Shown here piece by piece: positions 1 through 51,840 of a stretch of 64,000 nucleotides of DNA. The position numbers and the translations under genes were made by a program. Below the pieces are notes generated by a model. The model made no database searches. It was given only the letters and a program-made list of their open reading frames with translations, and was not told the origin of the DNA. Each line of letters opens with the position of its first letter. The first letter of the stretch is position 1. The stretch spans positions 2,170,001 through 2,234,000 of the forward strand of contig NC_063022.1 in the NCBI RefSeq assembly GCF_020509005.1, in the 5' to 3' direction. This DNA comes from Fulvia fulva (lineage: Eukaryota; Ascomycota; Dothideomycetes; Mycosphaerellales; Mycosphaerellaceae).

Positions 1-420
1 AAGGAACTTCATATTGGTTAGTAGGTGGAAACGCAAGGAGTACGCTGCCCGGCGTGGTGTGTGCCCCGAGCAGACCTGCGAGGCATGGACGGCCGCTTTC
101 TAGAGATAGGCTGCGGTAACGCGAAGGGCGTCAAAACCTGGGGCGTGGTGTACACTGGCAGCGACGGCTGACACTGTCTGTACAGCCCGAGAGGACGGAT
201 GCGCATGTCGGTCAATAGAGAGCACTAAAGGGCTCAGGCCTATGGAGGTGGATATTGGCTTAAGGAGCAAACAGGGAGGGAGGGCGTAGAGGGAAGCTTT
301 TGCTCCGGGCTAACCTCTCGAAACGAGGCTACACGGTGGTGCTAGATGAGTGGGAAAGCGCGGTTAAGACTTGTCACCTTATCTCGTAGCTAGCTTGCTA
401 AATACGATTCCTTCCTTGCC
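1..420 (+). repeat. Partner segment fused to the LINE 5' end, copy 1
   Basis: This segment aligns base for base, apart from C-to-T and G-to-A changes, with 7621-8039. The match stops abruptly after CCTTCCTTGCC, where LINE sequence begins in both places. I see no convincing reading frame. An 8-bp inverted repeat (GGAGCAAA at 264-271, TTTGCTCC at 298-305) and a small CTCG-AAA-CGAG hairpin (317-327) suggest a folded RNA. It may extend left of the window. By analogy with chimeric LINEs made by template switching, I infer that it derives from an unrelated RNA. Confidence 0.7.
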
Positions 421-426
421 CTGGAC

Positions 427-2457
427 ATGGATTGGGCGGTTAGCCCTAACACAGTAACAGGAGTCATAAGTAAGCTAAAGGGACGAAAAGCCCCAGGCCC
501 AGACAGGATACCAAACGTACTGCTAAAAGAGTGTAGAGAAGAGATCGCGCCGAGCCTTGCAAACCTATTTACCGCGTGCCTACGGCTAGGGTATCACCCG
601 AAGCCGTACAGAGAGTCTATGACAGTAGTGCTACGCAAGCCACAGAAGGAAGACTATACTCAGCCCAAGTCGTACAGACCAATAGCACTTCTAAATACGA
701 TAGGGAAGGTCCTAGAAAAGATAGTAGCCCAGAGACTTACGCAGCTTGCCGAGGACAACCACGTACTCCCAGCAACACAGATGGGGGGAAGAAGCCAGCG
801 ATCGACACTAACAGCAATGGAGCTAATTACGGAGCAAATCCAGACCCTCTGGCACTACGGCAGGAACCGAGCGGCGTCCTTACTATCCCTCGACATCGCA
901 GGGGCCTTCGACAACGTCTCACACCAAAGGCTAATACATATCCTACAGCAGAAAGGCATCCCCCAGTGGGCAACGTCGTTCGTCTTCTCCTTTCTCCAGG
1001 AACGGACGACATACCTAGTCCTAGGAAGGTACACGTCCGACCCGGTGAAGGCAGAGACTGGAATACCTCAGGGATCTACTCTCTCCCCTATCCTGTTTCT
1101 AATATTTATGTCGGATCTAATCCCCCTACTCACCTCTCCGCAAACCTCAGCATCGGGGTTCGTAGACGATACAAACATCCTAGCCTGGTCAGACTCGACA
1201 GAAGAGAACTGTCGCCTCCTTGAAGATAGGCACAAGAAATGCGAGGAGTGGGCAAAGAAGCATGGTGCCCGGTTCGCCCCTGAAAAGTACCAACTTATAC
1301 ACTTCAGTAAAGCGAGAACACACCATAATATGAAGGCGGCGGTAAGAATCCAAGGCTACGAGACCAAGCCATCAGCGGAGCTACGAGTACTAGGGATCTG
1401 GCTCGACCCGAAGCTAAGCTGGAATGTACAGATTAAGAAAGCCCAGAGTCGAGCGCAAGTCAATGAAGCCTCGATAAAGAGGCTTACGGCATCTACATGG
1501 GGAGCAACATTCGACAAGGCAAGAGTAATGTATAAGGCGATCGTCAGACCAGCTATGTTGTACGGGGCACAGATTTGGGGAACAGGAGGCGCAGGCAAGC
1601 CGATCCCGAAACGGATAGAGCAACCCCTAAACAGGACACAGGCAGGCAACCTACGTAGGGTACTAGGCGCATACAAGACAACGTCAACAAGCACGGTAGA
1701 AATGGAGACAGGAATACCACCAATCGGCCAGTACATCCGGGGAATGAGAATTCAATACGCGGCAAAGACGACAGGTTACCTAGCACAAACCACGATCCAG
1801 GAGGCAAAGAATAAGATAGAAAGCCGCTACCGGAGAGGGGCAGGATATAGGACAAGCCAAAAAGAGGATGACCTTACGACCTTTACGGCCGTACAGACAA
1901 GCACCGAATGGCTAGCACGAAAGGAGGAGGAGCGTAGGACTCGCCAGGCCGGCGGGAGCAAGGCTAAGACCCAAAACCTAGCGGAACAGATAGCGAGCTG
2001 CCTATGGGAGCAGGACTGGAAAAGGAAGCCCCCTAAGACAACAGGCCCGATAGCGCTCCGAGCCTTCCAGAGACACAATTACCAGCTATATAGGGACCTG
2101 ACAAGGGCCGAAGCAAGCATAGCGATCCAAATCAGGTCCGAACACATTGGATTAAGGGCCTACCTGTTCAGAAGACGCGCACTAGACATCTATAGCCCAG
2201 CCTGCCAGTGTGGCTACCCATCGCAAAACCCAGAACATATGCTACTACGATGCCCGCAGTGGGCGAGAGGCAGGGGAAATTGGAGGCACCAAGCGGGAAG
2301 GAGAGACTACAAGTCAATTATTAGGGACAAAGGCAACATTCGCCGAATCTCTCGGTGGATACTACAGCAGGGATACCTCCAGCAGTTTAGCCTCGCGAGC
2401 GAGACGGAAGAGTGGATAGACAAGAGGCGGAAGCGAGGGGGGTTGCAGATAGGGTAG
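427..2457 (+). CDS. LINE ORF2 fragment: reverse transcriptase with C-terminal zinc-binding region
   Basis: The 676-residue open frame begins about 20 residues before the RT core (KAPGPDRIPN). RT motifs are in order: the KSYRPIALLNTIGK region, motif A LDIAGAFDNV, motif B GIPQGSTLSPILF, and motif C FVDD at residue 245 (1159-1170). A thumb/connection region follows, and then a Cys-rich tail C-x-C-x8-H-x4-C near residue 597, typical of the end of Tad/I-type fungal LINE ORF2 proteins. I do not see an RNase H domain. The apurinic endonuclease normally upstream is absent, so this is the 3' half of a longer ORF2. The ATG at 427 may be fortuitous, because the frame is joined to a foreign 5' segment. 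There are no stops or frameshifts. Priming ability would depend on an endonuclease supplied in trans or on pre-existing nicks. Confidence 0.85.
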   Translation: MDWAVSPNTVTGVISKLKGRKAPGPDRIPNVLLKECREEIAPSLANLFTACLRLGYHPKPYRESMTVVLRKPQKEDYTQPKSYRPIALLNTIGKVLEKIVAQRLTQLAEDNHVLPATQMGGRSQRSTLTAMELITEQIQTLWHYGRNRAASLLSLDIAGAFDNVSHQRLIHILQQKGIPQWATSFVFSFLQERTTYLVLGRYTSDPVKAETGIPQGSTLSPILFLIFMSDLIPLLTSPQTSASGFVDDTNILAWSDSTEENCRLLEDRHKKCEEWAKKHGARFAPEKYQLIHFSKARTHHNMKAAVRIQGYETKPSAELRVLGIWLDPKLSWNVQIKKAQSRAQVNEASIKRLTASTWGATFDKARVMYKAIVRPAMLYGAQIWGTGGAGKPIPKRIEQPLNRTQAGNLRRVLGAYKTTSTSTVEMETGIPPIGQYIRGMRIQYAAKTTGYLAQTTIQEAKNKIESRYRRGAGYRTSQKEDDLTTFTAVQTSTEWLARKEEERRTRQAGGSKAKTQNLAEQIASCLWEQDWKRKPPKTTGPIALRAFQRHNYQLYRDLTRAEASIAIQIRSEHIGLRAYLFRRRALDIYSPACQCGYPSQNPEHMLLRCPQWARGRGNWRHQAGRRDYKSIIRDKGNIRRISRWILQQGYLQQFSLASETEEWIDKRRKRGGLQIG

Positions 2458-2660
2458 TCATCAGGGCAGGCCCATGACACTAGCGTACCCCTAACAAGGG
2501 AAATTTAAGACGACAACGAGGAGGAAAAGACAGGCGGGAAGGAGGAGGGGTTTTCACCAACACGGTTTCCCCTCTATATATACAAAAACAAGATAGCATA
2601 GCTGCATAGGCCAAAGGGCACTACAACAGCTTAATGAAATATCTATCTATCTATCTATAT
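2458..2660 (+). other. LINE-1 3' UTR with conserved tail motif and ATCT repeats
   Basis: The UTR holds a GGCGGGAAGG...GGTTTTCACC...CGGTTTCCCC...TATATATA block (2533-2584) and ends in ATCTATCTATCTATCT. The same block, with minor changes, precedes the ATCT tail of the more divergent LINE-2 (11169-11212) and LINE-3 (minus, 25218-25257). It is therefore a candidate for the 3' element recognised by the reverse transcriptase. Confidence 0.7.
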
Positions 2661-3800
2661 TACTAGGGATCTATCTTTTTAGATATATAAGCGATAGGAT
2701 ATAACACTCCTCGCTCGTTACGTTATAAGAGTACTACTACTATTACGTAATTTAAGGCATCTATTTCTAGAATAGTCTCTCGCTATAGGTAGAAGTGTTT
2801 TAAGGTAGGCGTATCGATAAATGCTTACTTTAATACCTCGAACGCCTGTTAATATACTAGAGACTAGTCCTATAGGACATTCTTCCTCGTAAGCTTTGTT
2901 ATAGGTAAGTAGATCTTACTAAAATCCTTAATAAACCTACGGTAGAAGTTAGTAAACCCTATAGACGATAAGATATCGGTAATATTCGCGGGTATAGGCC
3001 AATTCTTAACGTATTTAATCTTAGCTAGGTCCATCTTAATGCCCTTATTTGTGATAATAACACCTAGATAAGTAGTCTCGTATCTAAAGAACTCGCATTT
3101 GTTAATATCTAACTAGAGTCCGGCGGTATCTAGCTTTTATAGAACCTTTAGGATATATTAGACATACTCTTCTCTTGTCTTACTGAAGACAAGTACGTTA
3201 TTAAGGTAATATAACACGAAGTCATCTAGAAACTCCGTTAGTATATCGTTTATAAATAGCTAAAACGTTCCTCGTATATTATATAGTCCAAAAGGCATAA
3301 CTACGTACTTAAACTACCTATATCTAGTAGTAAAGGCCGTTTTCTACTCGTCTCCTACTATAATACGGATACGATTGAACGTAGCGATAAGATCTAGCTT
3401 AGTGAACTATTACGCGCTAGTAATACGATCTAAGGTCTCTTAAAATAGTAGAATCGGGTAGCGACTCTTCGTCGTAAGCGCGTTTAGAGCTCTATAGTCT
3501 ACGTATACTCGTAGCCCTCTACCCGGCTTTTTAACTATTAGAACAGGTACTACTACTAGTAATACGCTTCTCTAAATAAAACCTTTCTTAAGTTGGTCGT
3601 CGATCTACTTCTTAATCACCTCGTTCTCTCGTATAGAGAAGGAGTATAGTCTTTGAAATAGCGGTGTCTAACTATTCTTTAGCTTAATCTTATAGTCTAC
3701 GCTAGGCCGTCGCGGTGAGACCTTATCTACTTCCTTACGGCTAAATAGCCTAGCCATTTCCCTAAACTCTACTAGTAATAAAGGGATAGGATCCTAGTCT
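2661..3800 (-). pseudogene. Gypsy-1 reverse transcriptase/RNase H, RIP-inactivated
   Basis: Read on the minus strand, near 3535-3475 a stretch ending in VDYRALNAL follows KKPGRGLRV, which is the classic start of a Ty3/gypsy RT. The catalytic box near 3214-3181 reads YYLNNVLVFS, so both catalytic Asp codons have become Asn, consistent with G-to-A RIP changes. RNase H sequence follows (ETI-E-DA-NYVI pattern around 2790-2730, then an IAYISKK-like stretch) and stops where LINE-1 begins. Stops are at former Trp/Gln codons. The gene is non-functional. Confidence 0.8.
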
Positions 3801-4999
3801 TTGTCCTTACCGTTTATAAAACGTTAATAGTCGTTAGCTAATATAGTAGAGGCGTTAAGGTGCCGCTAGGTATAGTTACCCCGGGGCTCCTCCTATCTAT
3901 CTATATTTTCTTAAGTATTAGTATCTACTAATATCGCCGCGCTGCCTCCTAGTACTAGCTTCGCTCTTATACCGAAAGCCTTTAGTATATACGCGGATAG
4001 CGGGTCTCGCGCGACTTACTTATCAGGATTTTCTTTTAGGTTAAACATCTATATTATATATACTTTATAGCCCTTCCTCTAGCTTATACGCCGAAGTGCT
4101 TCTATATTAATAGGCTTGATGTCGATCTCCGGCTTAGTCTCGACCTTTAGTTCTTTCTTCGTTCGACGCGCTAGACGCTTAAGTGTTTTAACCCTATCGG
4201 CGGGTAGTAGCTAGCGGATATAGTAAGACGGTTCCGGTTTATCGTAGGTATCGACGGTATGTCGTATTACTACCTTCGTCGTATACGTCTCCTATACTAC
4301 TATAGGTTCGTCTTTATCCTCTACGTAGGGTTTAGCGTAATTAGATAGAGCTTAAGGTCGCGAACTCTCTAGTACTAGTATCTCGGTCTAAAGAACGCCT
4401 CTTAGTATAATACCCTTGTCGTTAATAGACTATACGTATACTAGTTCAGTTCCGAGTATATAGTTCTATCGACAATATAGTAAGAATAGAATTATAGTTC
4501 CTAACGTATAGTAGAACGTAGGTTAATGCTCGTCGTACTAGGGACGGCCGAGGACTATATCGTATTCTAGTAATACGTAGTAGCTAGACCTAGTCTCTAC
4601 GTAGTTACCGATCTGAATCTATACCGTTGTTCTATAAGTAATAAGGTCACTAGTAGGTCGGCTATCTACTAATATTAGCCCTAACGGATTAGGTAGCTAT
4701 ATTATATTAAGGTTATTCTTATACGTAAAGTCGATATTAAAGTACATAGAGTCAGTACTATTATTATAAAGGGTTTGAGTAGGGATCTTTCTATTCACTA
4801 TATATAGTATAACTAGATAAGAAGCTATTACCGGATTGTGTTTATCTATAGAGTAGTTTATAGCTAGTAGGGAGTATACCGATATACTCAAAACCTTGCC
4901 TCTCTTAGGAGGCCTATATTTATATTTATACTTTTTCTCGTTGTCTCGTAACTCTAACTCGTCCGTTCTACTACGTATTACGCTTACGGAGTGGACTAG

Positions 5000-6950
5000 G
5001 CGTTTCCCGCGCCGCCGGTATTGTTAGCGTTACTACTATTACTACCGTTACGGCGGTTATTACTTCGGTTATAGCCTAGCGTAAATAGGCGGCGGGCGAC
5101 ATCTCGAAGGGGGTACTAATCGGTATCGACACGGCGGTAACCTTCTTATTCGCATTTTAAGTACCTATTCTAATCGATATATTCCTAGGCGCGAGTAGTA
5201 TCTAAAGGTTAGATATACTAAAATGCCTAAGGTCGATTAGCCTACTTAGTCTTAGCGTTCGGGTTAGTGTTATTACTACTACTACCCGAAGCCGTATCCT
5301 TCTTATCGTCGTTACCCTTAGTAGTCTTCTTATTACCTTAGATCTTATTACTATTATCGGTCTTACCGTACTTAAGGTTAAACGCCTTAAACTTGTCCTC
5401 GTAGTTATATAGCGTAGATACGACTTACTTAAGGGTCATGTTGACTATGTCCTCGTTTATAATACGGTTATTATAGCGCGAGTTTAACTTACGGAGTAGG
5501 AAGTCCTTCTCGAGTTTCTTTTCCTTCGCGCCGTTATTAAGGTTAACAATATCGGCGTTCTTACGGAAGGATAGGTAGAAGTCACTAAACTTCTCCTTCT
5601 TACCCTACTATAGACTATTAAGCTTAGTTATAGTATTAGTATAGGTATTACGGGTACCGTAGCGCCGGGCTAGATCTTCTATTATCTTATCTATAGAAGC
5701 GTACTAAGTAGTCGTACCTTCCGTAGACTTAGTAAGACTAGGGATCTTCAAGTCGATATAGGTCTATATACCGTTCTTTAACTAGCTCTAGACATTCTAA
5801 AGGGAGTCCTTTATAGTACCGTACTTCGAGGCTTAGAGCTTAGCTTCGGTAGTACGCTACTACTCTTAGAACTTAATATCGTCGCTCTTTAGATCGAGCT
5901 TAGTAGGGGCCTTTAGCTCGTTAGAGGACTTAATACTAGTAGTTATGTCGGCGTCGTAAGTCGTGTATATAGAGATAGGGTTACTATCTAAGTCGGTACT
6001 CGGGCGATTCTTCTTACCCTTATAACTACCGTCCTTACGGCTATTCTTACGGCCCTTATTACCGTCGTCCTCTCGTCTAATAAGTCCGACAAATCCGGGT
6101 CCGACTTCTTCTTATTAGGCTTGCCTCTATTCTACCGACGCTCTAGTAACTCTTTAGACTCGGTTCGCTAAGGTAGTAGGTCTTACTTTTCCTTAGACTA
6201 GCTACGGTCCTTCTCTTACTTCTTAAGCTTAGTAATACGCTTCTCGGCTACTACGAGCTTAGTCTCGGTCTCTACTAGCTTACTCTCCGCTACCTTATAG
6301 TACGTACGATATACCTTCTTTATATCTTTAGCCCTCGTAAGCTCGTCTAGGTCGATAACGATAGTATTATTACGCTTAGCGATCTTCTCCTTTAGTCGCG
6401 TAACCTCCTCTTCTAGGGACTGTCTAGTCGCCTATTCCGTACCGATTATATCCTCGAGTCGGTCTATCTAGTCCTTAGTATCTTACGCCTTACGGAGGTT
6501 AATACGGTTAGCTATATCGAGCGTAGTATTAAGCTTATACGTACGTCGGTAATTGGACTCGATATTATAGAGGATCTTATAGATCTACTAGGGATAGTTA
6601 TTAACCGACTTCTTAAACTTGTCTATATTTAACCCGTTTAACGAGTCGAAGGCTTCCTAGAAGTTGTCGATAGTAATCCTCCTCTTCCTTAGTACCTTAG
6701 TACCCTTATCTTCTGTCTTATCCTCGATAAACTCCGCCCTATATAGGTTAGCTAAGTTCAACTCTATCTCGACCTCCTCTTCCTTAATTGCCTTAAGTTA
6801 GTCAAACACCTTCTTATACTACTTACGGTACTAGTTATTCTCGTCGGGGAGTATATTTACGATATCCTCTTTACGTCCTTAAGTCTACGTCGCCGGGTTC
6901 GCGCTATCGTTATCGGGCGGATTAGGTAGTAGGGTAAAGAAGGATAATCT
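5000..6950 (-). pseudogene. Gypsy-1 gag, RIP-inactivated
   Basis: The minus-strand translation shows a charged heptad-rich segment (EKRITKLKKQEKDRS around 6240-6200, preceded by a VAESKLVETETKLVVAEK-like stretch). A retrotransposon gag core follows (KFSDFYLSFRKNADIV, FLLRKLNSRYNNRI, around 5600-5450), and then a Lys/Asn-rich linker. The zinc-knuckle region expected near 5250-5080 is degraded. Stops come from TGG and CAG codons. Domain limits are approximate. Confidence 0.6.
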
Positions 6951-7439
6951 ATTAAGGGAGGTCGACGACGAGAATCACCTATACGTAGTATCGGCTACGA
7001 ACCTCTCGTCTAGCTACGAGAGAGCTAAGTATTCTTACGCTAGAGCGTCGTAGGCGCGACGGGCGCGTAACGTAGGCGAAGCCGCGGCGAATAGAGGACT
7101 ACTAGTAAAACGGGTATAAAAACTATCCGACGAGCGTGTACTCGTGTCGGGAGCGAGTCCCTCTTCTTTCTACGTATAAGAAGGGCGCGGAACCGTAGCC
7201 TATACGCTCGATAGGACACCTCTAGTATAAGTATAGAATTTTTACCTCCGGAGACCGTAAACCGAGCGGGCTAAGCGACGAATATTAGACGAGCGGACTA
7301 TAGAACAACAACTGAGCGGACTATATAACGGCGTCGAGCGGACTAAGAAACAATCTAGTGTTTGCTAGCGGGCAATACGGTAGGTAGGTAGACACGCGAC
7401 GAAGCCTATAAGGGCCTATTAAACACCCGGTATAGGAAC

Positions 7440-7620
7440 GAGGGTTTTGCCTAAGGCACTACCTATCCCGCTACATAACGCACCTAGTCTGATATAGTAG
7501 ATTGCGACGAGGAAAAGACGATAGCCTAAGCAAGGAAAAGACGGCTATTAGGACGGGGAAAAGACGTATAATATAAGTAGATTAGTTCTATAATCGGGGA
7601 GGATCGAGGGCAGGGTAATA
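7440..7620. repeat. Unassigned RIPed stretch with GGAAAAGACG repeats
   Basis: GGAAAAGACG (with GAGG/CAAGG/CGGG leaders) occurs three times between 7500 and 7570. It lies between the 5' part of gypsy-1 and the partner segment of LINE-2 and could belong to either. A similar GGAGGAAAAGAC string is found in the LINE-1 3' UTR (2518-2531). No gene is seen. Confidence 0.4.
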
Positions 7621-8039
7621 AGGAACTTTATATTAGTTAGTAGGTAGAAACGTAAGGAGTACGCTGCCCGGCGTAGTGTGTGCCCCGAGCAAACCTACGA
7701 GGTATAGACGGCCGCTTTCTAGAGATAGGCTACGGTAACGCGAAGGGCGTCAAAACCTAGGGCGTAGTATACACTAGTAGCGACGGCTAACACTGTCTAT
7801 ATAGCCCGAGAGGACGGATACGTATGTCGGTCAATAGAGAGCACTAAAGGGCTTAGGCCTATAGAGGTGGATATTAGCTTAAGGAGCAAATAGGGAGGGA
7901 GGGCGTAGAGGGAAGCTTTTGCTCCGGGCTAACCTCTCGAAACGAGGCTATACGGTAGTACTAGATAAGTAGGAAAGCGCGGTTAAGACTTGTTACCTTA
8001 TCTCGTAGCTAGCTTACTAAATACGATTCCTTCCTTACC
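7621..8039 (+). repeat. Partner segment fused to the LINE 5' end, copy 2 (RIPed)
   Basis: This is the same sequence as 1-420 with only C-to-T and G-to-A substitutions, mostly CA to TA or TG to TA. The hairpin arms GGAGCAAA/TTTGCTCC are retained. It ends at the same base as copy 1, after which LINE endonuclease sequence begins (GACTAGGAGG, matching the reverse complement near 51565). Confidence 0.75.
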
Positions 8040-11000
8040 GACTAGGAGGTAGTGTACTACGTAGACGAAGAAGGCGGGGGCGATATTACCTCCCTCTACG
8101 TAGGTAGTACCTAGATATACAACCTATATATACAACCGCTAGCCTCGAAGTCTAGCCGCGACCTAGGGGTCTATAGACACCTAGACAGTGCGCTTAAGAG
8201 ACAAGGGTGCCATATCGTAGTAGGAGACTTTAATATACACTACCCTTCCTAGGAAAGCCTTATATAGCCGCACCCTATAGCCGACGAAGTACTCGACTTA
8301 ATAGCGAGCAACGTAATTGCCCTTAATACCCCGAAGGACCTAGGCACCTAGAAGAGAGGGGGACTCTAAGGTACGATCGACCTCTCCTAGATCTTAGATA
8401 GCTACTACTATACGGTAACCTACTATAGGATCGAACATAAACTCGAGGCGTCGTTAGACTATATACTAGTTAGGACCTCTATTACGACATAGATATAACG
8501 TATACTAGCGAGTACCCCTAAGCTAAACTAGGGAAAGGCCTACTAGGCTAACATCTAGGCGTACCTCGATGACTCTAAGAGGCTAGTCTAGATCGCGTAG
8601 TAGCAATACAACAGTAAAGACGAGATAGACGAAGTAGTCTAGGGGTTAATAGACGAAATAAGAAAAGCGACCTTACTTCACGTTCCGCTTACCTAACTAA
8701 CGATATAGTCTAAACTATACTAGACGCCGGAGTACACTACGGTAGTAAGAGAAGTAAGGAGAGCCCGCCGGGTGTAGACGAGTAGTTATAGCGAGGAGGC
8801 CTAGAACGTATATAGGGAGGCATACTAACAGAAGAAAGCTATAATACGAAGGGAGAAAGTAGTCGGCTAGAGGGCTATAGTAGAAGAAATCGCCGGCAAG
8901 CTAGAGAGGATGTAGAAGCTAGCGAAATGGGCCCGATAGGACCCTATATAGGGCCCCTCCTTCTCTATCCTAGCGCTATAATCGCCTAGTAGCCCGGTTA
9001 GCGACCCTAAGGCTAAGGCGCGTCTACTAGCTAGTAAGTTCTTCCCGCCCCTAGTCGAGGCTAATCTAAGCGACATAAATAGCTCTACTCCCCTAGCCCC
9101 TAGTATCGCGGTCTAATAGGAGGTGTCCGAGGGAGAAGTTGCCGCTATGCTAAGGAAGTTGCCGGCGAAGAAAGCCCCGGGGCCGGATAGGATCCTGAAC
9201 GAGCTACTAAAGAAGTGTAGAGATCAACTAGCCCTAGTAGTTATAGCGATCTTTAACGCCTACCTATAGACCGGGTACCACCCGATAGCTTTTAAACAAT
9301 CGACGACAGTAGTCCTACGTAAGCCGTAGAAGGAAGACTATACGTAGGTGAAGTCGTACCGCCCAATTACGCTCCTTAATACTCTTAGGAAGGCGCTTAA
9401 GAAGCTAGTTATAACGAGACTCTCCGAGGCGGTAGAGGAACACTCCCTACTCCCGGACACCTAGATAGGTACGCGCCTATAGCGATCGACGCTATCCGCG
9501 ATAGAACTTATTACCTCTTAGGTAAAGGCTATCTAGTATAAGAATAGGGACAAGGTGGCTTCCTTACTTAGCCTAGACATATCGGGAGCCTTCGACTACG
9601 TGTTATACCCGCGGCTACTCTATATCCTAAGGTCGAAAGGACTCCCTAAGTGGCTTGTTAACTTCGTACGGTCCTACCTCCAAAACCGTAGTACGTCGAT
9701 CCTAGTCGGCTAGTATAGAAGCCTATTTTAAGTAGTCTATACTAGAATCCCGTAAGGCTTAACGCTAGTACCTATTCTGTTCCTCTTCTTTATAGCGACG
9801 CTGCTCCTAGCCCTAGAATCCTAGAACACCGCTACGAGCGGCTTCGTAGACGACATAAACATCCTAGCGTAGTCTTCCTCGACTAAGGAGAACTATAGGC
9901 TACTAGAAGAGAAGTACAAGATCTACGAGGACTAGGCTAGGAGGCACGGGGCTCGGTTTGCCCTAGAAAAGTACAATCTGATACACTTTACGCGCCGGCT
10001 ACGGTTCTATAATATATAAGCTTCTATCTAGATATAGGGGTATACGACTAACCCGGCAAATTAGCTTAGGATCCTCGGACTATAGGTAGACCCGGCGCTA
10101 CGGTAGAGGAAGTACGTATAGGCAATATTACGGAAAGCTAAATAGAATATAGCATTATACTAGAGGCTTACTACGTCTATATAGGGGGCGGACTTCCGGT
10201 AATTACGACTTCTATATACGGCTATTATACGGCTAGTCCTTACCTATAGTAGCTAAGTGTAGTCCTTAGGCGAGAGGGCCTACCTATCGAAGGGACTCGT
10301 CGCGCCGCTAGCGAAGATCCAAAACTAATGCCTAAGGAAGGTCACCGGGGTATATAAGTCGATACTAACGAGGATACTTAAGTACGAGACCGCTATACCG
10401 CCGATCGACCTATATATCTAGGGACTACGGACCTCCTACTTAGGCAAGTCGGTATAGTACCTAGTATAGAAGGTTATCGCTAGTACAGTCGTAAGGGCCC
10501 GCGAATTAGTACTAGCGTATAGGGGCATTCGACCCGGAAACGAGCCGAACTACCGGGTAAGGGACGAACAGCTAGTAATATAATAGGAAGGTAAGAAATC
10601 GTTTATAGAGCAACTATAGAAAGAGAGGTAGAACAACTAGGTTGTAGGGTATAGTAGACGCCCTTAGCTAGCGGGATAACCTAAGGAATAGTTAGCTACA
10701 AAATCCGCGGTCAAGTACCCCCCGAAGCTTATCTACTACCGCCTTACGAGGGTATAGAGTAGTATAGTAACCTAACTACGAAGCGAACACATCGGCCTCT
10801 AGGGGTACCTATCATAGAGGAAGGTTCTAGGATACACGAATACTAGCTGCCCCTACGGCTATCGCTCCTAGAACGTACGGTACGTACTCCTCGTCTATCC
10901 GAGGTAGTCGCTAGGAAGGGGGGAGTAGATAGTAAAGGCGAGGAACCGGACGATTAGGGCACTTCTTAACAACGCTAAGGACCTACGGCGTATTACGAAA

Positions 11001-11110
11001 TAGATACTAGAGAAGGGCTGGCTAGAATAGTACCGCCTAGTAGGAGCAGTATAGGAAGAGAGGACACGACGTAGCGCGACGAGACCGGCTAGGAGCGGGG
11101 GCTAACGGGG
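8040..11110 (+). pseudogene. LINE-2 ORF2 (partial endonuclease + RT), RIP-inactivated
   Basis: The frame enters the apurinic-type endonuclease at VVYYVDEEGGGD. It shows VGDFNI (around 8225), then the RT core KAPGPDRI (9172-9195), motif A LDISGAFDYV, an IPQG motif B, and motif C FVDDIN at 9843. In-frame TAG/TAA codons replace Trp and Gln throughout. It is related to LINE-1 but is a separate subfamily. It lacks the first part of the endonuclease because of the chimeric 5' junction. Confidence 0.8.
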
Positions 11111-11285
11111 TAGTGACATAGACTACGTACGTTTAGAGGGAAAGCTAAACTAGATAAGGAGTAGTCGGGGGCGGGAAGGGTTTTCACCTATTCGGGTTTC
11201 CCTTTATATATAATAATAGATATATACCTATATAGGCCGGATAGGGTCCTAGAACAGAGGAATGACAAATCTATCTATCTATTAA

Positions 11286-11557
11286 GGGACGCGCGATAAA
11301 CGCGTCTATTAGTATCCTCTATACTTACGCCTAGTACGCCGGTACCGGTCTATTTCGCTATTACTACTATATTAGCTATAATCTACTTTAAGGTACGACT
11401 TAGTGAGTACGACTCCTAATCTTAGTACTTCCTTATATACTGTCGCGGTTTCTCTATAATCTCCTAAATATAGCTTCTTATATCTCTCTATACGTTAGTA
11501 ATAATCTATTTGAAGTGTTATAAGTAGGTATAAGTATATAGTCGGGTAAGGTATAAG
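11286..11557. other. RIPed intergenic stretch, no gene seen
   Basis: This stretch lies between the LINE-2 tail and the copia-A 5' LTR and continues across copia-A into 18338-18530, because the ATAAG target-site duplication joins them. It is AT-rich and CA/TG-depleted. I recognise no coding or terminal repeat structure. Confidence 0.4.
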
Positions 11558-19545: not shown

Positions 19546-19781
19546 AGCCCAGGGCTGTGAGTCAGCGCTAGAACCGTCTGACATCTACGACTATCTGGGA
19601 TTCCGACCTGGTGGCGCACTCAAGCTTTGGCTAGCCGCGTTTGTCATCGACCACGAGGAAACCACGACTCATACCGCATTTGAGTTTCCGGCTGCTTCTC
19701 CGCCACGGCAAGAACGCCGGAACATAGACATTGCCCGAAAGCGTCATCAAGGTGCGACTCTGGGCAGCGATCGCGGATGAG
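19546..19781 (+). promoter_or_regulatory. Upstream region of the JJJ1-like gene
   Basis: Only about 235 bp of unmutated sequence separates the RIPed repeats from the start codon, so the core promoter and 5' UTR must lie here or in the repeat edge. I see no clear TATA box. Confidence 0.35.
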
Positions 19782-21470
19782 ATGGGACAGAGTCAGTCCT
19801 CTGGCGGTGCCGGTGGAGGGAGCAGAGGCGGTGGAGGAGAGGTGAAGACGAGCTACTACGTGCTACTTGGCATCGAACGAAATGCTACCGAGGAAGAAAT
19901 CAAAAAGGCGTACCGACGAAAAGCACTCGAGCTCCATCCAGACCGCAATTATGGCAACGAGGAGGCAGCTACGAAGACGTTTGCTGAGATCCAGGCTGCG
20001 CATGAAGTGCTGTCCGACCCACAGGAACGCGCCTGGTATGACAGCCACGAAAGCGCCATCCTGCGAGGTGACGATGCCACCACCGACGCCCCAACTTACG
20101 AAGATGTACGTGTGACTACTGCGGATGACATCGCTCGACTGGTGAGCAAGTTCAATCGGAATGTAGAGTTCTCTGATGCGCCTTCTGGATTCTATGGCTT
20201 TGTGCGGGAGACATTCGAACAGCTTGCCAAGGAGGAAGATATTGCTTCGAGCTGGGAGGATGTTGAGGTTCGCGAGTATCCCACTTTCGGTCACAAGGAC
20301 GACGAGTACGGCGATGTTGTCAAACAGTTCTATGCTGCTTGGTCCGGATTCAGTACGGTCAAGTCTTTTTCGTGGCGTGACAAGTACAGGCTCTCAGATG
20401 CGCCAGATAGATGGATCAGAAGACGCATGGAGCAGGAGAACTTGAAGTTGAGGAAGGATGGCAAGCAAGAATTTAATGAAGCAGTAAGGTCTCTTGTGCA
20501 GTTCATCAAGAAGCGAGATCCTCGCTTCGTGCCAAACACGCAGTCAGAGGCAGAAAGGCAGAAGGCGTTGCGTGACGCTGCCGCTGCGCAAGCTGCTCGT
20601 GCCAGAGCCGCCAACGCTGCAAAGCTAGCTGAGCAAGCAGTGCCGGAGTGGACGAAAGCCCGAGATCCAGAAGAGCTGGAAGAGAGCTCGGAGGAAGAAG
20701 TCGAGGAGCTCCATTTCGAATGTGTGGCATGTAATAAAGTGTTCAAAAGCGAACGTCAGTGGGAAGCACATGAGAAGTCGAAGAAGCATCAAAAGGCCGT
20801 CAAAGAGTTGCAGAAGCGTATGCGGAAGCAGAATGCTCATCTCAACCTGGACGAAAGTGGTACTGACAGTGGAGCTGTTACACCGGATCTTGAAGACGAG
20901 GAACAGGAAGTCCTAGATGACCTGGCCGCTGAAGTGGAAGACCACGAAGATTACGCCGATGGAGCCTCGGAGAAGGCTGAGGATGACATTGACGATGCAG
21001 CGTTTGCCACTGATGCAGAAAAACACGAAGTAGATGTCCCAAAGGACGACGCCGACCAGGGCCCTCGAGAAGACCACGAACCTTCCACCACTGTCCCGGA
21101 AATGGAAGCCAACGAAGTCGAAGAAGCCTCAAATTCTGAAAACGAAGATTATGCATCTATGTCCACCATACAAGCGCGAATGCGATCTGCGGCTCTCGAC
21201 ACCCCAGCCTCTACCGTTGCTTCCACCGCGGCATCTGAAGACAATTCTGGACCTGCCAAGCCGAAGATGGGCAAAGCCGCACTCAAGCGAGCGAAGAAGG
21301 CTGCCGCCGCTGACGCACAGGCTGCTGCGGGTCATAAGTGTCAAGTCTGTAATGAGGAGTTCCCTTCCAGGACTAAGCTCTTCCAGCATGTCGAAGAGGA
21401 AGGCCATGCTGCGCTGAAAGATGCTAAGCCTGGGAATGCGAAGGGCAAAAAAGGCAAGGGAAAGGGATAA
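19782..21470 (+). CDS. JJJ1: JJJ1/DNAJC21-like J-protein co-chaperone of 60S ribosome maturation
   Basis: This is a single-exon gene of 562 residues. The frame is open from a TTG at 19731, but the ATG at 19782 (MGQSQSS) gives the expected N-terminus, so I start there. A Gly-rich linker is followed by a J domain at about residues 22-92 with the HPD motif at 52-54, and then a conserved middle region ([28 protein letters not shown]). A charged Ala/Glu-rich coiled segment follows. Two C2H2 zinc fingers complete the domain set: one at about 311-342 (CVACNKVF...H-x5-H) and one at about 518-545 (CQVCNEEF...H-x5-H). An acidic region lies between the fingers, and the C-terminus is Lys-rich (KGKKGKGKG). 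In yeast, Jjj1 stimulates Hsp70 (Ssa) and, with Rei1, releases Arx1 from cytoplasmic pre-60S particles. The same role is inferred here from the domain order. Composition is normal, without RIP damage. Confidence 0.93.
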
Positions 21471-22053: not shown

Positions 22054-24335
22054 ATGGCCGATCTCAGCAGGGTACCGGCCGTCGAGAGCGCGAAACCGTC
22101 TGACGACCACGAACGCACGAAATCAATTAGCACCGATGCTAAAGGCGACACTGTCATCATCACCCAGAATGGCGACAGCTTCACCATCGACAAGAAGGCG
22201 GAAAGAGCGCTGCTTTGGAAATTGAATTTGCGCATCTTGCCACTTCTCACCATGATGTATCTCTTCAACAGCTTGGACAAGGCAAATCTTGGCAATGCGA
22301 AGACAGCAGGATTGGAGAAAGATCTCGGGTTCGCTGGAACGAATAAGTGTGAGTATCAGAAGGCCTAAGCGAGTTAAGGTATGACATTGACAGACGTAGA
22401 CAACATTCTACTTTCGATCTTCTTCGTCCCATACGTTCTCACAGCACCGTTCCTCGGCATAGTCGGCAAGATGTACGGCCCTTCACGAGTCTTACCGGCG
22501 ATGATGGTGTGTTTCGGATCCATGACGTTGCTAGTAACCGCAACTTATAACTGGTCTGGCCTCATGTGAAGGAGGATTTGTCACACACCTCGTATTCGTA
22601 TTGTGAGGTGTATGTGACTATTTACTGTACAGGAAAACCGAAGAAGAGCAATGTGTGGGCCAAGCACGGCAAGTGGTGCCACGGCTAGAGCAGTGCGGCA
22701 GTGCCGCAGTGGTGCTACCTCGTGACAAGGTCATTTTAGAGCTCGTCGTCGGACTCTACCTCGACCTTGATGTCGACTCGCTTCTCACCTGACGGTGCGT
22801 CCTCGGCGTCGAACTTCTGATGCTTCGGCTGAGTTCTGTTCTTGACTTCGACTCGGCCCTCACCTGATCTTCCCTTCTCGGTGTCGAACTTCTGCTGCGC
22901 TTCGACTCGGTCTTCGCCTGATCTTCCCTTCTCGGTGTCGAACTTCTGCTGCTCCGGCTCTTTCGACGTAAGGTGTGTAGTAGTGATAGTCTACGGCGTC
23001 GAAAGTCAAAGCTTTTTCGACGTAAGGTGTGTGGTGGTGATAGTCTGCGGCGTCGAAAGTAATGGCTGCTTCGACGTGAGGTGTGTGGTAGTGGTCGCTT
23101 AGCTACGAGAGCTTGTGACTACTTCAACTCGGCAGCATGTGCTAACATGTGACATTACAGTGTCGAAAGTGAAATTCGCTTCGACGTGATGCACGACCTA
23201 TGCCTTAGTGAGCTTATGATTTGGCACTCTGTTATGGGCCAATTTTCCGACAAGGCTACGTAGTCTGAATTGTAAGAGATGGTTCCTAGGAATGGCAGAA
23301 AGCGCCTTCTTCCCACTGGTCATCTACTACCAAACACAATTCTACCGCAGAGGTGAACTCGCCCGCCGACTTGCCGTCTTCTACGCCGCTTCCGACATCG
23401 CCTACGCCTTCGGTAATCTCCTTGCTTTTGGCATGTTCCAGCTAGACGGGGGCGTTCTGCCAAGTTGGAAGTACCTATTCGCTCTGGAAGGGAGCCTGAC
23501 GATCTGTGGTGCTGTCGTCGCGTTTCTGTTTCTGCCGTATAGCGCGGAGAAGGCTACGTTTTTGACGGCTGAGGAGAAACGACTCGCTTTCTACCGTATT
23601 CAGACTGATTCCTCCGCCGTGGTCGAGGAGAAGTTCAACCTCCGGGAGACACTCAAGATTCTCAAACAACCCACCAGCTGGGTGATCCTCGCGATCCAGA
23701 TGTGCTTGAGTATCCCTCTGCAATCGGTCTCCCTCTTCCTACCTCAGATCGTGGGAAGACTGGGCTACAGCACTATTAAGACGAACCTCTACACAGTCGC
23801 ACCCAACTGTGCCGGTGCAGTAATGCTCTTAATCTTAGCATACTCCTCCGACTACACCCGCTGGCGCTTCCCCTTCATCGCTCTGGGTTTTCTCTTCACA
23901 TTCTGCGGCTTCATCATCTACGCGGCCATCGACGTCGAGCACAACATCAACGTCGCATACTTCGCCTGCTTCATGGTGACTTGGGGCACATCAGCACCTT
24001 CCGTCATTCTGGACGTCTGGTATAACAATAACATTGCGGACGAGAATAGGAGGATGCTGCTTACGTCTATCGGAGTACCGACGGCGAATATGATGGGGGT
24101 GGTATCGAGCAACATTTTCAGGACGCAGGATGCGCCGGATTATATCCCCGCACTGGCTACCACTGCGGCTTTTGGGGCACTGGGAATCTTGTTGACGTTA
24201 GCGCTCGGAGGATGGATGATTCTTGAAAATGGAAGGAGGGACCGCAGGCAGGGTGTGATTGTTAGGGCGCAGGATGTGCCGACGGAGAGGTTGAAGGAGG
24301 GGCCTGATTGTGATGATTTCAGGTGGATATACTAA
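22054..24335 (+). CDS. MFS transporter, Dal5-like anion:cation symporter family (three exons)
   Basis: The proposed join is 22054-22348, 22394-22565, 23264-24335, which gives 512 residues in frame, a normal length for the family. The start ATG opens MADLSRVPAV. Exon 1 ends after a conserved DKANLGNAK...LEKDLGF stretch. Intron 1 is 45 nt (GTGAGT...GACAG). Exon 2 carries LLSIFFVPYVLTAPFLG and GKMYGPSRVLP. Exon 3 carries RWFLGMAESAFFP, RDAPDYIPAL-like sequence and the family-typical tail (RRDRRQG...VPTERL...GP...FRW-Y). Multiple hydrophobic segments fit 12 membrane helices. The family moves vitamins, allantoate, nicotinate and small organic anions at the plasma membrane; the substrate here is unknown. 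The exon 2/3 junction is the weak point: the intervening 0.7 kb is repeat-filled, the donor (GTGAAG) is poor, and the acceptor I chose adds two residues relative to the usual spacing. The gene could be disrupted instead. Confidence 0.8.
22349..22393 (+). other. MFS intron 1 (45 nt)
   Basis: The GTGAGT donor and GACAG acceptor have a CTAAG-type branch candidate between them. Splicing removes the stop after KCEYQKA and joins NK to a Tyr codon followed by VDNILLSIFF, as expected for the family. Confidence 0.75.
22566..23263 (+). repeat. Repeat-filled intron or insertion in the MFS gene
   Basis: The stretch begins with an inverted repeat (GTCACACACCTC / GAGGTGTATGTGAC, about 22579-22617). It then contains a minisatellite in which TTCGAC recurs at 22847, 22901, 22962, 23016, 23070 and 23180, a period near 54 bp, each paired with a GTCGAA about 35-40 bp later. 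There are two unit types: one ending CTTCTGCTGC and one containing GACGTRAGGTGTGTRGT. A textbook branch point and acceptor (TGCTAAC...ATTACAG) ends at 23160, but exon sequence after it soon meets a stop. The 86-residue frame inside is repeat-derived. The fungal introns I would expect here are under 100 nt, so this is exceptional. Confidence 0.65.
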
Positions 24336-25133: not shown

Positions 25134-27049
25134 TATAGATAGATAGATAGATAGATTTGTCATTCCCCTATTCTAGGACCCTATTCGGCCTATATAGGTA
25201 TATATCTATTGTTATATACAAAGGGAAACCCGAATAGGTGAAAACCCTTCCCGCCCCCGACCTCTCCTTGTCTAGATTAACTTTCCCTCTAAACGTACGT
25301 AGTCTATATCACTACCCCGTTAGCCCCCGCTCCTAGCCGGTCTCGTCGCGCTACGCCGTGTCCTCTCTTCCTATACTACTCCTACTAGGCGGTACTGTTC
25401 TAGCTAGCCCTTCTCTAGTATCTAGTTCGTAATACGCCGTAGGTCCTTAACGTTATTAAGAAGTGCCCTAATCGTCCGGTTCCTCGCCTTTACTATCTAC
25501 TCCCCCCTTCCTAGCGACTATCTCGGACAGACGAGGAGTACGTACCGTATATTCTAGGAGTAATAGCCGTAGGGGTATATTACGGTTTACTACTACCGTA
25601 ACGTCGCGCGCCTTAGCGCTTCCTTATATATCTCGCGTATTACGTTAGAAGTATAGGAAGTTATTATACGGGCTTATATAGGGTGTTTTAAAAGTAGGTT
25701 ATGTATTGTATATGTCTATCTAGAATGGACAAGTGTTGCTCTTAAAGAGGCTATAGGTGACTAATTAGTCACCTAATTCTTAGCGTACGTAGCCTTAAGT
25801 TTTGATAATAGGATGTTACCTATATATACGCTCGGATCGCGACATACCCCCTCAGCTCGTACGCTAGAGTGAATGAGCTAATTCCTATATAATCGCGTGT
25901 ACCCTGTCATAACTACCCCCCCTACCTATAGCAGTAACGTTAGGCCCTCGGTATTACTACTACTATAGTAAGGGTAAGTCAGCTATTTTAAGTAAAGTAA
26001 GCTAAGGTAAGTAAGGTGAGCTTTATACCCCTTCCCTTATTCCTCACTTTCACTACTACTATTGTTACCTATATAATAAAGTATAGTATATATAACTATT
26101 ACCGGTAAGATAGCTTAGGTAATAGTCCCGTTATACGGACTTTTACTTAAGTATATAATCATCTTACCTACCGGCAAACATTAGAGGTCCTAAGTTCAAT
26201 CTAGGGGTAGCCTTAGTCCTATCGTATACTTGAACATATATTGTCGTCCGCTTAACTTATTAAATTGTCCGATAATTGCTCTATACTAAGTAATTTCGCT
26301 CCGGCAAATAGTAAGAGAGCTCGCTCTACCCCTAGGGAGTATAAGATACTAGTTAGTAGCGCAATATACTAGGCTGACTACGACAGAGCTTGTACTATAT
26401 AAGGTGTAATAGGGCTCTAATAGGTAATACCGGAGTAACGGTATTAGAAAGTTAAAAAGGCACCTTCGGGGTGCCTTACTTTCTACACTTTTAAAGGTCA
26501 TTACCTTAGGGTAGTGACACCTTTTTGTTTTGGGCAAGTGTGTACTATATATAAGGTACGAAAGTAGCGGATAATGTAGTAACAAGGTGGTAGTATTGTT
26601 ACTAGTAGCAAGTTAGAGGCGTTTCTCGCTTTCTAATTAGACGCGCTACTTTTGTCGCGCGCGTACGCTACTACTAGTAACAGGGGTGTTTCTCGCCCTT
26701 ACGCTATTAGCTAATAGGAGTCCGAGAAACACCTATTAATAATAGTACTAGGGCCGTACCGGTAAATAGTAGATACTTTGCCCTAGCTTTGTTGTCGTCT
26801 ATAGTATTAGTAGCTACTAGTGGCCGTGTTTTACGCCTACTAGCGCTTCTAGAGAGGTGTCCGTAAAGATAAAGCCGTTCGGTGTTCGTTTCGAGATAAG
26901 GTAAGGCCGCTACTACGGGCTTCTTAGGCGTCTATTAGCCCGTTACCTCCTAATACGGCTATAGAGGGCACTAAGGTACGTAGGTCTACGCCTTCCTTAG
27001 CTATATTAAGTAGCTTGACGAAGTGCTTATACTTCTGTAGTAGAAGTAG

Positions 27050-43143: not shown

Positions 43144-44139
43144 CTAGGCAGATTTCGAGAAGAAGTTCTCGCATTCCCCGTACGTCGTCGTTGCCCGATC
43201 CATAGCGTTGAACTCGCGGCTAACAATATTCTTCTTCGGACAGTCTCTAGCATAGTGGCCTTTCCTTCCACATGCATAGCAAGTTAGATCTCTTGTTAAC
43301 TGCTTGCTTCGTCCGCGCCTTTCCGTGGCGTCGAGCTCCATCGGCTCTCCATAATCAGGGTCATGACTTCTGGCCTTGAAGCCCCCTCTTCCGCTTCTCG
43401 CGGGTCTCTGGAATCCAGGCTGTACGAATCGGTCGTACTTCAACTCCTGGAGTCTCTCGTCGATTTCCTTTGCAGCCTTGACCATCGCGGCCAAGCTGGT
43501 GAGACTGGAGTTTCGAGATAATTCGGCTTTGACGTTGTCCTTCAAGCCTAGGTAGAACTGGGAACGAAACGCTGCGTCGTTCCACTCGAGGTCGGCGGCA
43601 TATCCCTGGAATTCAGAAGCATAGACGGCAACTGAGGTGTCCTGTCGGAGTTGTCGGATATGTCGGTCGGCATGAACCTCTTCATTAGGTATCCCGTAGA
43701 GATCATTCAGTTCGATCTCGAACTCATCGTAGTCGGCAAATACCTTCCGGGTTTCTGTCTTCGGGTCGTCTCCTTCGTCCTGGTTGTTGAGCCAGTCTTT
43801 GAGGCATGGTCTGAACCCCCGGGCTGCCCTGCCCCTTAGGAAGGATGCGGCGTACAAGACCTTAGAGGCCTCGCCATTAAACTGTTGGGCGTTGAAGTAG
43901 AGGTACAGCTGAACCTGCAGCTGAAAAGCCTCCAGCTTCCCTTGTGTCCCATCGAACGTCTCCGGTGGTGACACCTTAGGTGCCTTGGTGAACTCGTGCA
44001 TGCTGTTCGAGCTTGCAGAGGGTGTTGATCGTTTTCCGCTTCCAGTAATCGACATTTCGCTCATTCGTTCCGTGATGCCAGTTGACTGTGGCTGTTGTCG
44101 TGACGGACTCCGGGTAGCGTCTCTCCCAGACATGTGCAA
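43144..44139 (-). CDS. gag: Element D Gag with CCHC zinc knuckle
   Basis: The frame is an intact 331 residues. A Ser/Thr-rich head precedes a retrotransposon gag core (ETFDGTQGKLEAFQLQ, a KVLYAASFLRGRAARGF-like stretch, YASEFQGYAADLEWND, FYLGLKDNVKAEL) at about residues 55-230. A basic RG-rich linker follows, and then the zinc knuckle CYACGRKGHYARDC near residue 295. The protein ends about 25 residues later, without fusion to protease. Its length and order are those of a normal Ty3/gypsy Gag. It would form particles and bind element RNA, with Pol supplied in trans. It is the only undamaged retrotransposon gag in the window. Confidence 0.92.
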   Translation of the reverse strand: MHMSGRDATRSPSRQQPQSTGITERMSEMSITGSGKRSTPSASSNSMHEFTKAPKVSPPETFDGTQGKLEAFQLQVQLYLYFNAQQFNGEASKVLYAASFLRGRAARGFRPCLKDWLNNQDEGDDPKTETRKVFADYDEFEIELNDLYGIPNEEVHADRHIRQLRQDTSVAVYASEFQGYAADLEWNDAAFRSQFYLGLKDNVKAELSRNSSLTSLAAMVKAAKEIDERLQELKYDRFVQPGFQRPARSGRGGFKARSHDPDYGEPMELDATERRGRSKQLTRDLTCYACGRKGHYARDCPKKNIVSREFNAMDRATTTYGECENFFSKSA

Positions 44140-51600: not shown

Positions 51601-51840
51601 GTACGTACGGGGTCTACCGTCGCCTCGTAGGTATATCGTATAGCCTAGTAACTTGTAGGTCGTTAGTCTCTTATAGTACGGGTTAATCTATAGCTCCTAG
51701 ATTACTAGGACGTAGTAGACGTACGGGTCCGCCTCGTATAGGAAATAGTTCGAGACTATATCCTTACTATAGTTAACGTTATACTAGATAATACTAAGCG
51801 TATCGAGGCTAGTTATCGTTATCGACAATCATTTCCTCTA
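48645..51840 (-). pseudogene. LINE-3 ORF2 (endonuclease + RT), RIP-inactivated
   Basis: The frame reads from 51840 downward. It begins with an apurinic-endonuclease start (LRILQYNVN, a VLVIQE motif, around 51820-51690). EN body and then RT follow (KAPGPD around 50430, FVDDTNIL at 49770-49751), and then the C-terminal region. The remaining C-terminus is at 25577-25320. Stops replace Trp and Gln. A 113-bp tandem duplication near the end shifts the frame. Confidence 0.8.
48729..48954. repeat. 113-bp tandem duplication within LINE-3 ORF2
   Basis: The unit starting ACTATACTAC at 48729 is repeated from 48842. LINE-2 has a single copy at the equivalent place (about 10670-10780). The period is not a multiple of three, so it shifts the frame. 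The two units differ only by a few transitions and probably arose before or during RIP. Confidence 0.85.

Follow-up and report, generated by a model that had tools for sequence, protein, structure and literature searches.

A non-coding 1,080-bp sequence joined to the 5' end of truncated LINEs of several families in Fulvia fulva

Background

In Magnaporthe grisea, 31 copies of a chimeric element, MINE, have been described, in which a sequence of 1,113 nt, WEIRD, is the partner mainly of the long interspersed nuclear element (LINE) MGL, and also of Mg-SINE and the LINE Enigma (PMC2104539; here and below we draw on parts of that paper). Here we describe chimeras in a 64,000-nucleotide stretch of Fulvia fulva (contig NC_063022.1, positions 2,170,001 to 2,234,000; "the window" is this whole stretch) and in the rest of its assembly, in which LINEs of at least four families are joined to one sequence of 1,080 bp, here called the partner. 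As judged from sequence, these composites are of the MINE-type architecture in a new host. Both systems have a full-length non-coding 5' partner of about 1.1 kb, a 5'-truncated LINE in the orientation of the partner, target-site duplications (TSDs), which are of 10-20 bp in MINE, and multi-step jumps; no solo partner has been found there, nor here in the junctions read, and recurrent switch sites lie, on their upstream side, at GCC or a near variant. They differ in the host, which here is another fungus and probably of another class, and in scale, with 179 intact partner 3' ends here (546 by a marker proof against repeat-induced point mutation, RIP) versus 31 MINEs. At least four LINE families are involved here, whereas it is mainly MGL there, and partner-partner concatemers occur here and are not mentioned for MINE in the parts of PMC2104539 used.

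Chimeras of the U6 small nuclear RNA (snRNA) and LINEs are known from vertebrates, and in Anolis one RNA is found on three LINE clades (PMC4476161, also used in part). These resemble the present composites in that one RNA is fused to 5'-truncated LINEs with TSDs, and differ in that the RNA is a known snRNA of 100-200 bases, while the partner here is several times longer. Bibillo and Eickbush are said to have found in 2004 that the R2 reverse transcriptase (RT) jumps end to end between templates in vitro. The junctions described below would likewise reflect a jump to the 3' end of another template without long homology, but the stop on the donor would be internal to the LINE RNA and site-preferring. 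Short interspersed nuclear elements are non-coding RNAs that are multiplied by the LINE enzyme, and they supply the 3' end at which copying starts; the partner, in contrast, would be copied last, as a 5' addition, and in the junctions read it never carries a LINE tail. Among the open-licence titles listed for chimeras of the MINE/WEIRD type, the papers on Magnaporthe and that on mammalian U6 were the sole relevant ones. The LINE Tad1 makes up 16.3% of the genome of F. fulva Race 5 (PMC9453070, PMC10823647), and in the parts of these sources covered no chimera wording occurs, either in the main text of PMC9453070 or in PMC10823647.

Results

Two composites in the window

The window contains two composites, in which the partner is joined to two different LINEs, LINE-A and LINE-B. 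Window positions 1-420 and 7620-8039 align without gaps over 420 bases and differ at 32 positions, all of them RIP-type changes in the second copy (G-to-A 22, C-to-T 10). The original prediction, made from the window alone, had described these segments as alike except for RIP-type transitions, with a common end base and different points of entry into the LINE, and both statements hold: the two copies run from ...CCTTCCTT[G/A]CC into the second open reading frame (ORF2), before the RT core in LINE-A and in the endonuclease region in LINE-B. The composites are made up as follows.

1..420 (+): composite 1, 3' part of the second partner copy (a 5'-truncated copy of about 914 bp), read with genome locus L009; the full 1,080-bp partner that starts the composite lies left of the window, at C11:2168427
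421..2655 (+): 3' part of LINE-A, with ORF2 from before the RT core (ORF 427-2457), the 3' region and an (ATCT)n tail; the join is at CC in the LINE template
2656..2668 (+): right TSD of composite 1, TATATTACTAGGG; its left counterpart precedes the window
6947..6959 (+): left TSD of composite 2, ATCTATTAAGGGA
6960..8039 (+): partner of composite 2 over its entire 1,080 bp, with RIP mutations
8040..11276 (+): LINE-B, entered within the endonuclease region and running to the 3' tail, with RIP mutations; 90.9% to LINE-B of locus L022 over window 8038-11282
11277..11289 (+): right TSD of composite 2, ATCTATTAAGGGA

With both TSDs, composite 2 spans window 6947-11289, and it enters LINE-B some 137 bases from the start of the endonuclease-region segment of L022. 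The LINE-A ORF of composite 1 matches RVT_1 (E 9.7e-35). The first partner copy of the window is a piece of a partner-partner dimer that lies mostly to the left of it. The length of 420 bp originally given for the partner was too short, since the window starts within a copy.

The partner in the genome

The genome searched was the window's own assembly (67,169,167 bases in 14 contigs, C1-C14), and the material read comprised 20 loci of about 9 kb, 60 short junctions on C1-C3, 12 5' regions of LINE-A and smaller sets. In the first search the 420-base segment gave 40 scored matches from 637 first-look candidates, and it is therefore part of a large family. The partner measures 1,080 bp in 20 of 22 composites; the exceptions are L009, counted once among the 22, which has a full and a truncated copy of 1,994 bp in all, and L019, in which a RIP-mutated second copy has 1,057 bp. 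All unmutated copies read have GGTCGACGACG at the left end and ...CCTTCCTTG(CC) at the right. A 23-base pattern of the 3' end has 179 exact copies genome-wide and its reversed control none, so these matches are not due to chance; the 22-base left end has 176 exact copies. With RIP-proof markers the counts are 546 for a 20-base 3' pattern and 352 for a comparable left pattern, and the lower number for the latter leaves the completeness of the 5' ends less clear.

The partner is non-coding: as originally stated it has no clear ORF, the longest that starts with ATG being 62 amino acids, against a median of 87 in shuffled sequence, and thus no longer than chance would give. The stable inverted repeats that had been ascribed to it were not borne out, because its predicted fold is no more stable than those of dinucleotide shuffles (z +1.18 with 100 shuffles, +1.51 with 20), and unusual RNA stability was rejected on these values. 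An Rfam scan of the window gave nothing at gathering scores, with just weak matches to fragments of long non-coding RNAs far under threshold, so that a match of the partner to any Rfam family, be it a ribozyme or another structured RNA, was rejected. The same holds for a Pol III gene of the tRNA type, since simple pattern matching gave two A-box-like strings and no B box. One exact 22-base scan of viral contigs, a weak test of viral origin, gave 0 matches and lends such an origin no support. Short internal repeats can be seen by eye at about 330-640 of the partner (window about 7290-7600), namely three of GAGCGGACTA and about three of GGAAAAGACG. The RIP-mutated copies L134-L136 have in common an older variant, with GTCTTACT in place of the reference GTCTAGCT, which indicates that the partner sequence has changed over time.

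Junctions and LINE families

The 82 junctions read comprise 58 distinct sequences (57 of 81 before L098 was added), four of which are RIP variants of others. The LINE parts that follow come from at least four families and begin in ORF1, the endonuclease, the RT or the 3' region, except that two junctions (L009 and L080) lead into the partner itself. Fusion is direct, in the same orientation and without extra bases in the 49 distinct junctions for which a template was found. The genome search and junction mapping that had been proposed for the segment thus bear out a constant partner end with a variable LINE entry. The least biased set consists of 70 of the 72 3' ends listed for contigs C1-C3. 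It has 53 distinct entry sequences; LINE-A forms the largest cluster, LINE-B the second, and there are several further ones. When doubtful junction loci were compared by blastx with LINE-A, LINE-B and LINE-D proteins, 25 of 26 matched ORF1 or ORF2, and the remaining one, L064, clusters with L040 and L065, both of which match LINEs. L060 and L081, which had seemed the likeliest to be a source gene, were rejected, as they enter a LINE RT and a LINE ORF1, respectively.

The RTs of LINE-A and LINE-B are 49% identical over 670 aligned amino-acid positions. The RT piece of L073 has 62% and 61% identity to LINE-A and LINE-B, and that of L060 45% and 46%. With only 45-62% identity to LINE-A or LINE-B, these RTs represent at least four LINE families. 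The original prediction was right to separate the two LINEs of the window, although "subfamilies" places them too close. The named matches to the LINE-A RT include a Passalora fulva protein (61% over 81% of the query).

Two arrangements of junction loci may be mentioned here. L047-L049 (C1:8826062, 8830729 and 8835400, minus strand) have one common junction at 4.67-kb spacing in a tandem array, which is probably a local duplication. L027 (C3:1705000-1714500) and L028 (C3:1661500-1670800) point in opposite directions, and their left flanks and TSD are identical; they are an inverted segmental duplication of one insertion event.

Insertion as one unit

In 19 of the 22 composites a single TSD of 12-18 bp surrounds partner and LINE together. 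For the second copy of L019 no TSD was found, its 3' end lying beyond the stretch read. A TSD around the LINE piece alone, which had been named as an observation that would speak against template switching, was thus not the pattern found, and nested or separate insertions were rejected on the same count.

A site rule at the junction

A template that runs through the junction site was found for 49 of the 58 distinct junctions, or 45 sites after the four RIP variants are merged. The last template base before the junction (position -1) is C in all 49, a result partly imposed by the pattern used to find 3' ends; position -2 is C in 37 and T in 12, and position -3 is a purine in 44. The triplets before the junction are ACC (17), GCC (15), ATC (11), TCC (4), CCC (1) and GTC (1), and the base after it is C in 35, T in 9, A in 4 and G in 1. 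A pyrimidine followed by C accounts for 0.11 of positions in LINE-A.

A second sample was anchored at the left end of the partner and comprised 75 copies on C1-C3, 19 of them without an exact right end. Of the 74 copies that could be evaluated, 69 have C or its RIP product at -1, and the rest have T (3), A (1) or G (1). Further templates from this sample have a pyrimidine at -2 in 16 of 16, several at sites already counted, so that overall the base before the break is a pyrimidine in 65 of 65 templates, and the base that follows it is nearly always C. In this reading L128 was dropped because it matched another partner junction, L133 had no match and L122 had no partner end. The partner-to-partner junctions of L009, L080 and L116 all obey the pyrimidine rule. 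It is likely that the enzyme halts before a pyrimidine and that the terminal G of the cDNA is set against the final C of the partner, after which the G of ...CUUG is the first base to be copied.

Repeated junctions and concatemers

One junction, CCTGGACATGG, was found in eight copies, a number raised by the first query, which favoured it. Relative to L012, one of the eight, the LINE parts of the other seven have 1-2 changes in 2,195 bases. The seven full partners read at this junction represent five haplotypes, with 0 or 3-5 differences from the reference in 1,079 bases. Their haplotypes share variants with partners at other junctions, and the reference haplotype is common to chimeras of LINE-A, LINE-B and LINE-C. 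Some of the variants are G-to-A or C-to-T, and the LINE parts of the same copies have no such excess. Since partner haplotypes and junctions are not linked, the recurrent junctions look like hotspots for independent jumps rather than the products of master copies.

Jumps from partner to partner are seen in L009, L080 and L116. In L009 a full partner is followed by a second one, cut at about position 166, and then by LINE-A.

Full-length, capped and truncated LINE-A

Among 12 LINE-A 5' regions, 11 belong to full-length copies that have a 5' end of their own and lack a partner, and the twelfth (L098) is partner-capped in the 5' part of the LINE. By marker positions, the 47 exact LINE-A 3' ends on C1 include 19 partner-capped copies, 18 with their own 5' end and 3 that reach ORF1; the other seven include one plain truncation and one head-to-head arrangement. 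Ten candidates for plain truncation yielded one plain case (L111) and one head-to-head case (L108), and eight extend beyond the stretch read, so that the control set of plainly truncated LINE-A is thin, with L111 as its single proven member. These counts suggest that capping is a main outcome of interrupted LINE-A insertion, while plain truncation looks rare in the sample seen.

Truncation of the LINE is common, and no partner is truncated among the 32 copies with an unmutated 3' end that were compared on C1: the left marker in 29, and reading in the other three, showed the 5' end to be intact. We therefore infer that insertion is readily completed only once the true 5' end of an RNA, be it that of the LINE or that of the partner, has been reached.

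In the full-length LINE-A copies (L089-L097, L099, L100) the outermost 20 or so bases, before GGACGAGGACCATTCAATCG, occur in a few recurring versions, such as CTCTTTCGGGTACTA and TATCATTATAGATTGACTA, which are possibly alternative starts or further short jumps. At C1:2567320-2568850 (L096, L108) a 3' fragment of LINE-A and the 5' end of a full-length LINE-A face each other in head-to-head orientation, an arrangement that recalls twin priming or a nested insertion.

Discussion

We consider it very likely that the chimeras arise by template jumps from several LINE RNAs to one partner RNA during target-primed reverse transcription. The original prediction had explained them by a switch of template from a LINE RNA to a second RNA, always at the 3' end of the latter, and this agrees with 58 distinct junctions among 82, a TSD around the composite in 19 of 22, several LINE families and dimers. 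The features on which it draws can be read in the DNA: fixed partner ends and variable LINE entry, single TSDs, the rule at the junction site, full-length LINE-A copies that have no partner, and intact 5' ends in partners whose 3' ends are unmutated. The enzyme of the LINE would nick the target and copy the LINE RNA from its (ATCT)n 3' end. Copying would halt short of the 5' end of the LINE, with a pyrimidine as the next template base and, nearly always, a C as the last one copied, and the enzyme would jump, without added bases, to the 3' end of a separate non-coding RNA of about 1,080 nt, the putative sequence of that end being ...CCUUCCUUG(C/CC). The partner would then be copied to its 5' end (GGTCGACGACG...) and the composite joined to the target with one duplication of 12-18 bp; at times the enzyme may jump from partner RNA to partner RNA before it finishes. 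The partner would on this account be a discrete RNA of about 1,080 nt that starts with GGUCGACG and ends with ...CCUUCCUUGC(C), and reaching a true RNA 5' end would help an unfinished insertion to completion.

Several observations weigh against this account. L013 and L017 have no clear TSD. The 82 junctions yielded neither a solo partner nor a source gene, and another 18 ends that could be read yielded no clear one either, L121 among them joining an unassigned repeat and L133 having no match; this count covers mainly C1-C3, with few copies from C4-C14. On C1, 37 of 100 RIP-proof right ends listed are without an exact left marker; of those read, three proved to be full copies of the older variant, and in one, L137, no 5' part of the partner stands at the expected place. 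The constancy of C at -1 owes something to the search pattern. Finally, the switch site of MGL in Magnaporthe is GCC*A/U, with similar upstream variants (Table 3 of PMC2104539, in the part used), and the base after the junction here is mostly C (35 of 49) in contrast to A/U there.

The partner might instead be joined to a 5'-truncated LINE RNA beforehand, through the action of an RNA ligase or in a ribozyme-like reaction, so that a chimeric RNA is copied in one pass. Cleavage between the pyrimidine and C, with a partner ending at ...UUG, would fit the site rule equally well, and homology to the LINE beyond one base would not be required. Several LINE families would, however, all need one type of cleavage, no Rfam family, ribozymes included, fits the partner, and template jumping is a known ability of LINE enzymes (PMC4476161, PMC2104539, in the parts used). 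We regard joining at the RNA level as improbable, and the junction appears to be made in cDNA synthesis. A little less probable again is that a few master chimeras retrotranspose as units and that most copies descend from them. The recurrence of CCTGGACATGG in 6 of the 70 C1-C3 copies is what this would predict, and a promoter within the partner is conceivable, but 53 of those 70 entry sequences are distinct, and near-identical LINE parts carry five partner haplotypes, for which reason copying of master chimeras was rejected as the main source.

Two further possibilities can be given hardly any weight. The partner stands 5' of LINE sequence in all copies read, as an ordinary LINE 5' untranslated region would if the copies had arisen by internal deletion. 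The original prediction had named this as an outcome that would speak against it. For LINE-A, in which it was examined, 11 of the 12 5' regions are full-length with a different 5' end, and one and the same partner is found on LINE families of 45-62% protein identity; the idea was rejected. In a genome rich in nested repeats, LINE piece and partner could also be separate insertions or DNA recombinants that abut by chance, but such events would hardly give a fixed partner end in 58 distinct junctions, always in the same orientation, with a single TSD in 19 of 22. Template jumping onto a separate partner RNA thus accounts best for the composites.

More tentatively, and with considerable doubt, the partner may be a new kind of selfish RNA, which multiplies only as an acceptor of LINE jumps and lends a true 5' end to the unfinished insertions of many families. 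The features that led us to this suggestion are the lack of a LINE tail at the 3' end, of a solo gene in the copies read, several source haplotypes, complete ends in those young copies that were read, and self-stacking. If it is correct, LINE-A copies in this genome are mostly either full-length or partner-capped. For WEIRD, PMC2104539 prefers a housekeeping RNA, in the part used; our findings question the view of the partner as a mere housekeeping RNA. What was known from 31 MINE copies in one fungus appears to recur in another at hundreds of copies, with one RNA serving several LINE families under a shared stop rule. New here are the host, the number of LINE families involved, the scale, the concatemers and the LINE-A count by which capping would be a main fate of interrupted insertions. 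The completion of prematurely stopped LINE cDNA becomes testable in this way, as full-length, capped and plainly truncated outcomes can be counted in one genome.

Other features of the window

The window holds further pieces of LINE-B at 25140-25575 and 48645-51703 (-), the former a 3' fragment of 436 bp with no detectable partner. Likely host genes encode a DnaJ/zuotin-like zinc-finger protein (19731-21470) and an MFS transporter (23292-24335), and a retrotransposon gag lies at 43144-44139.

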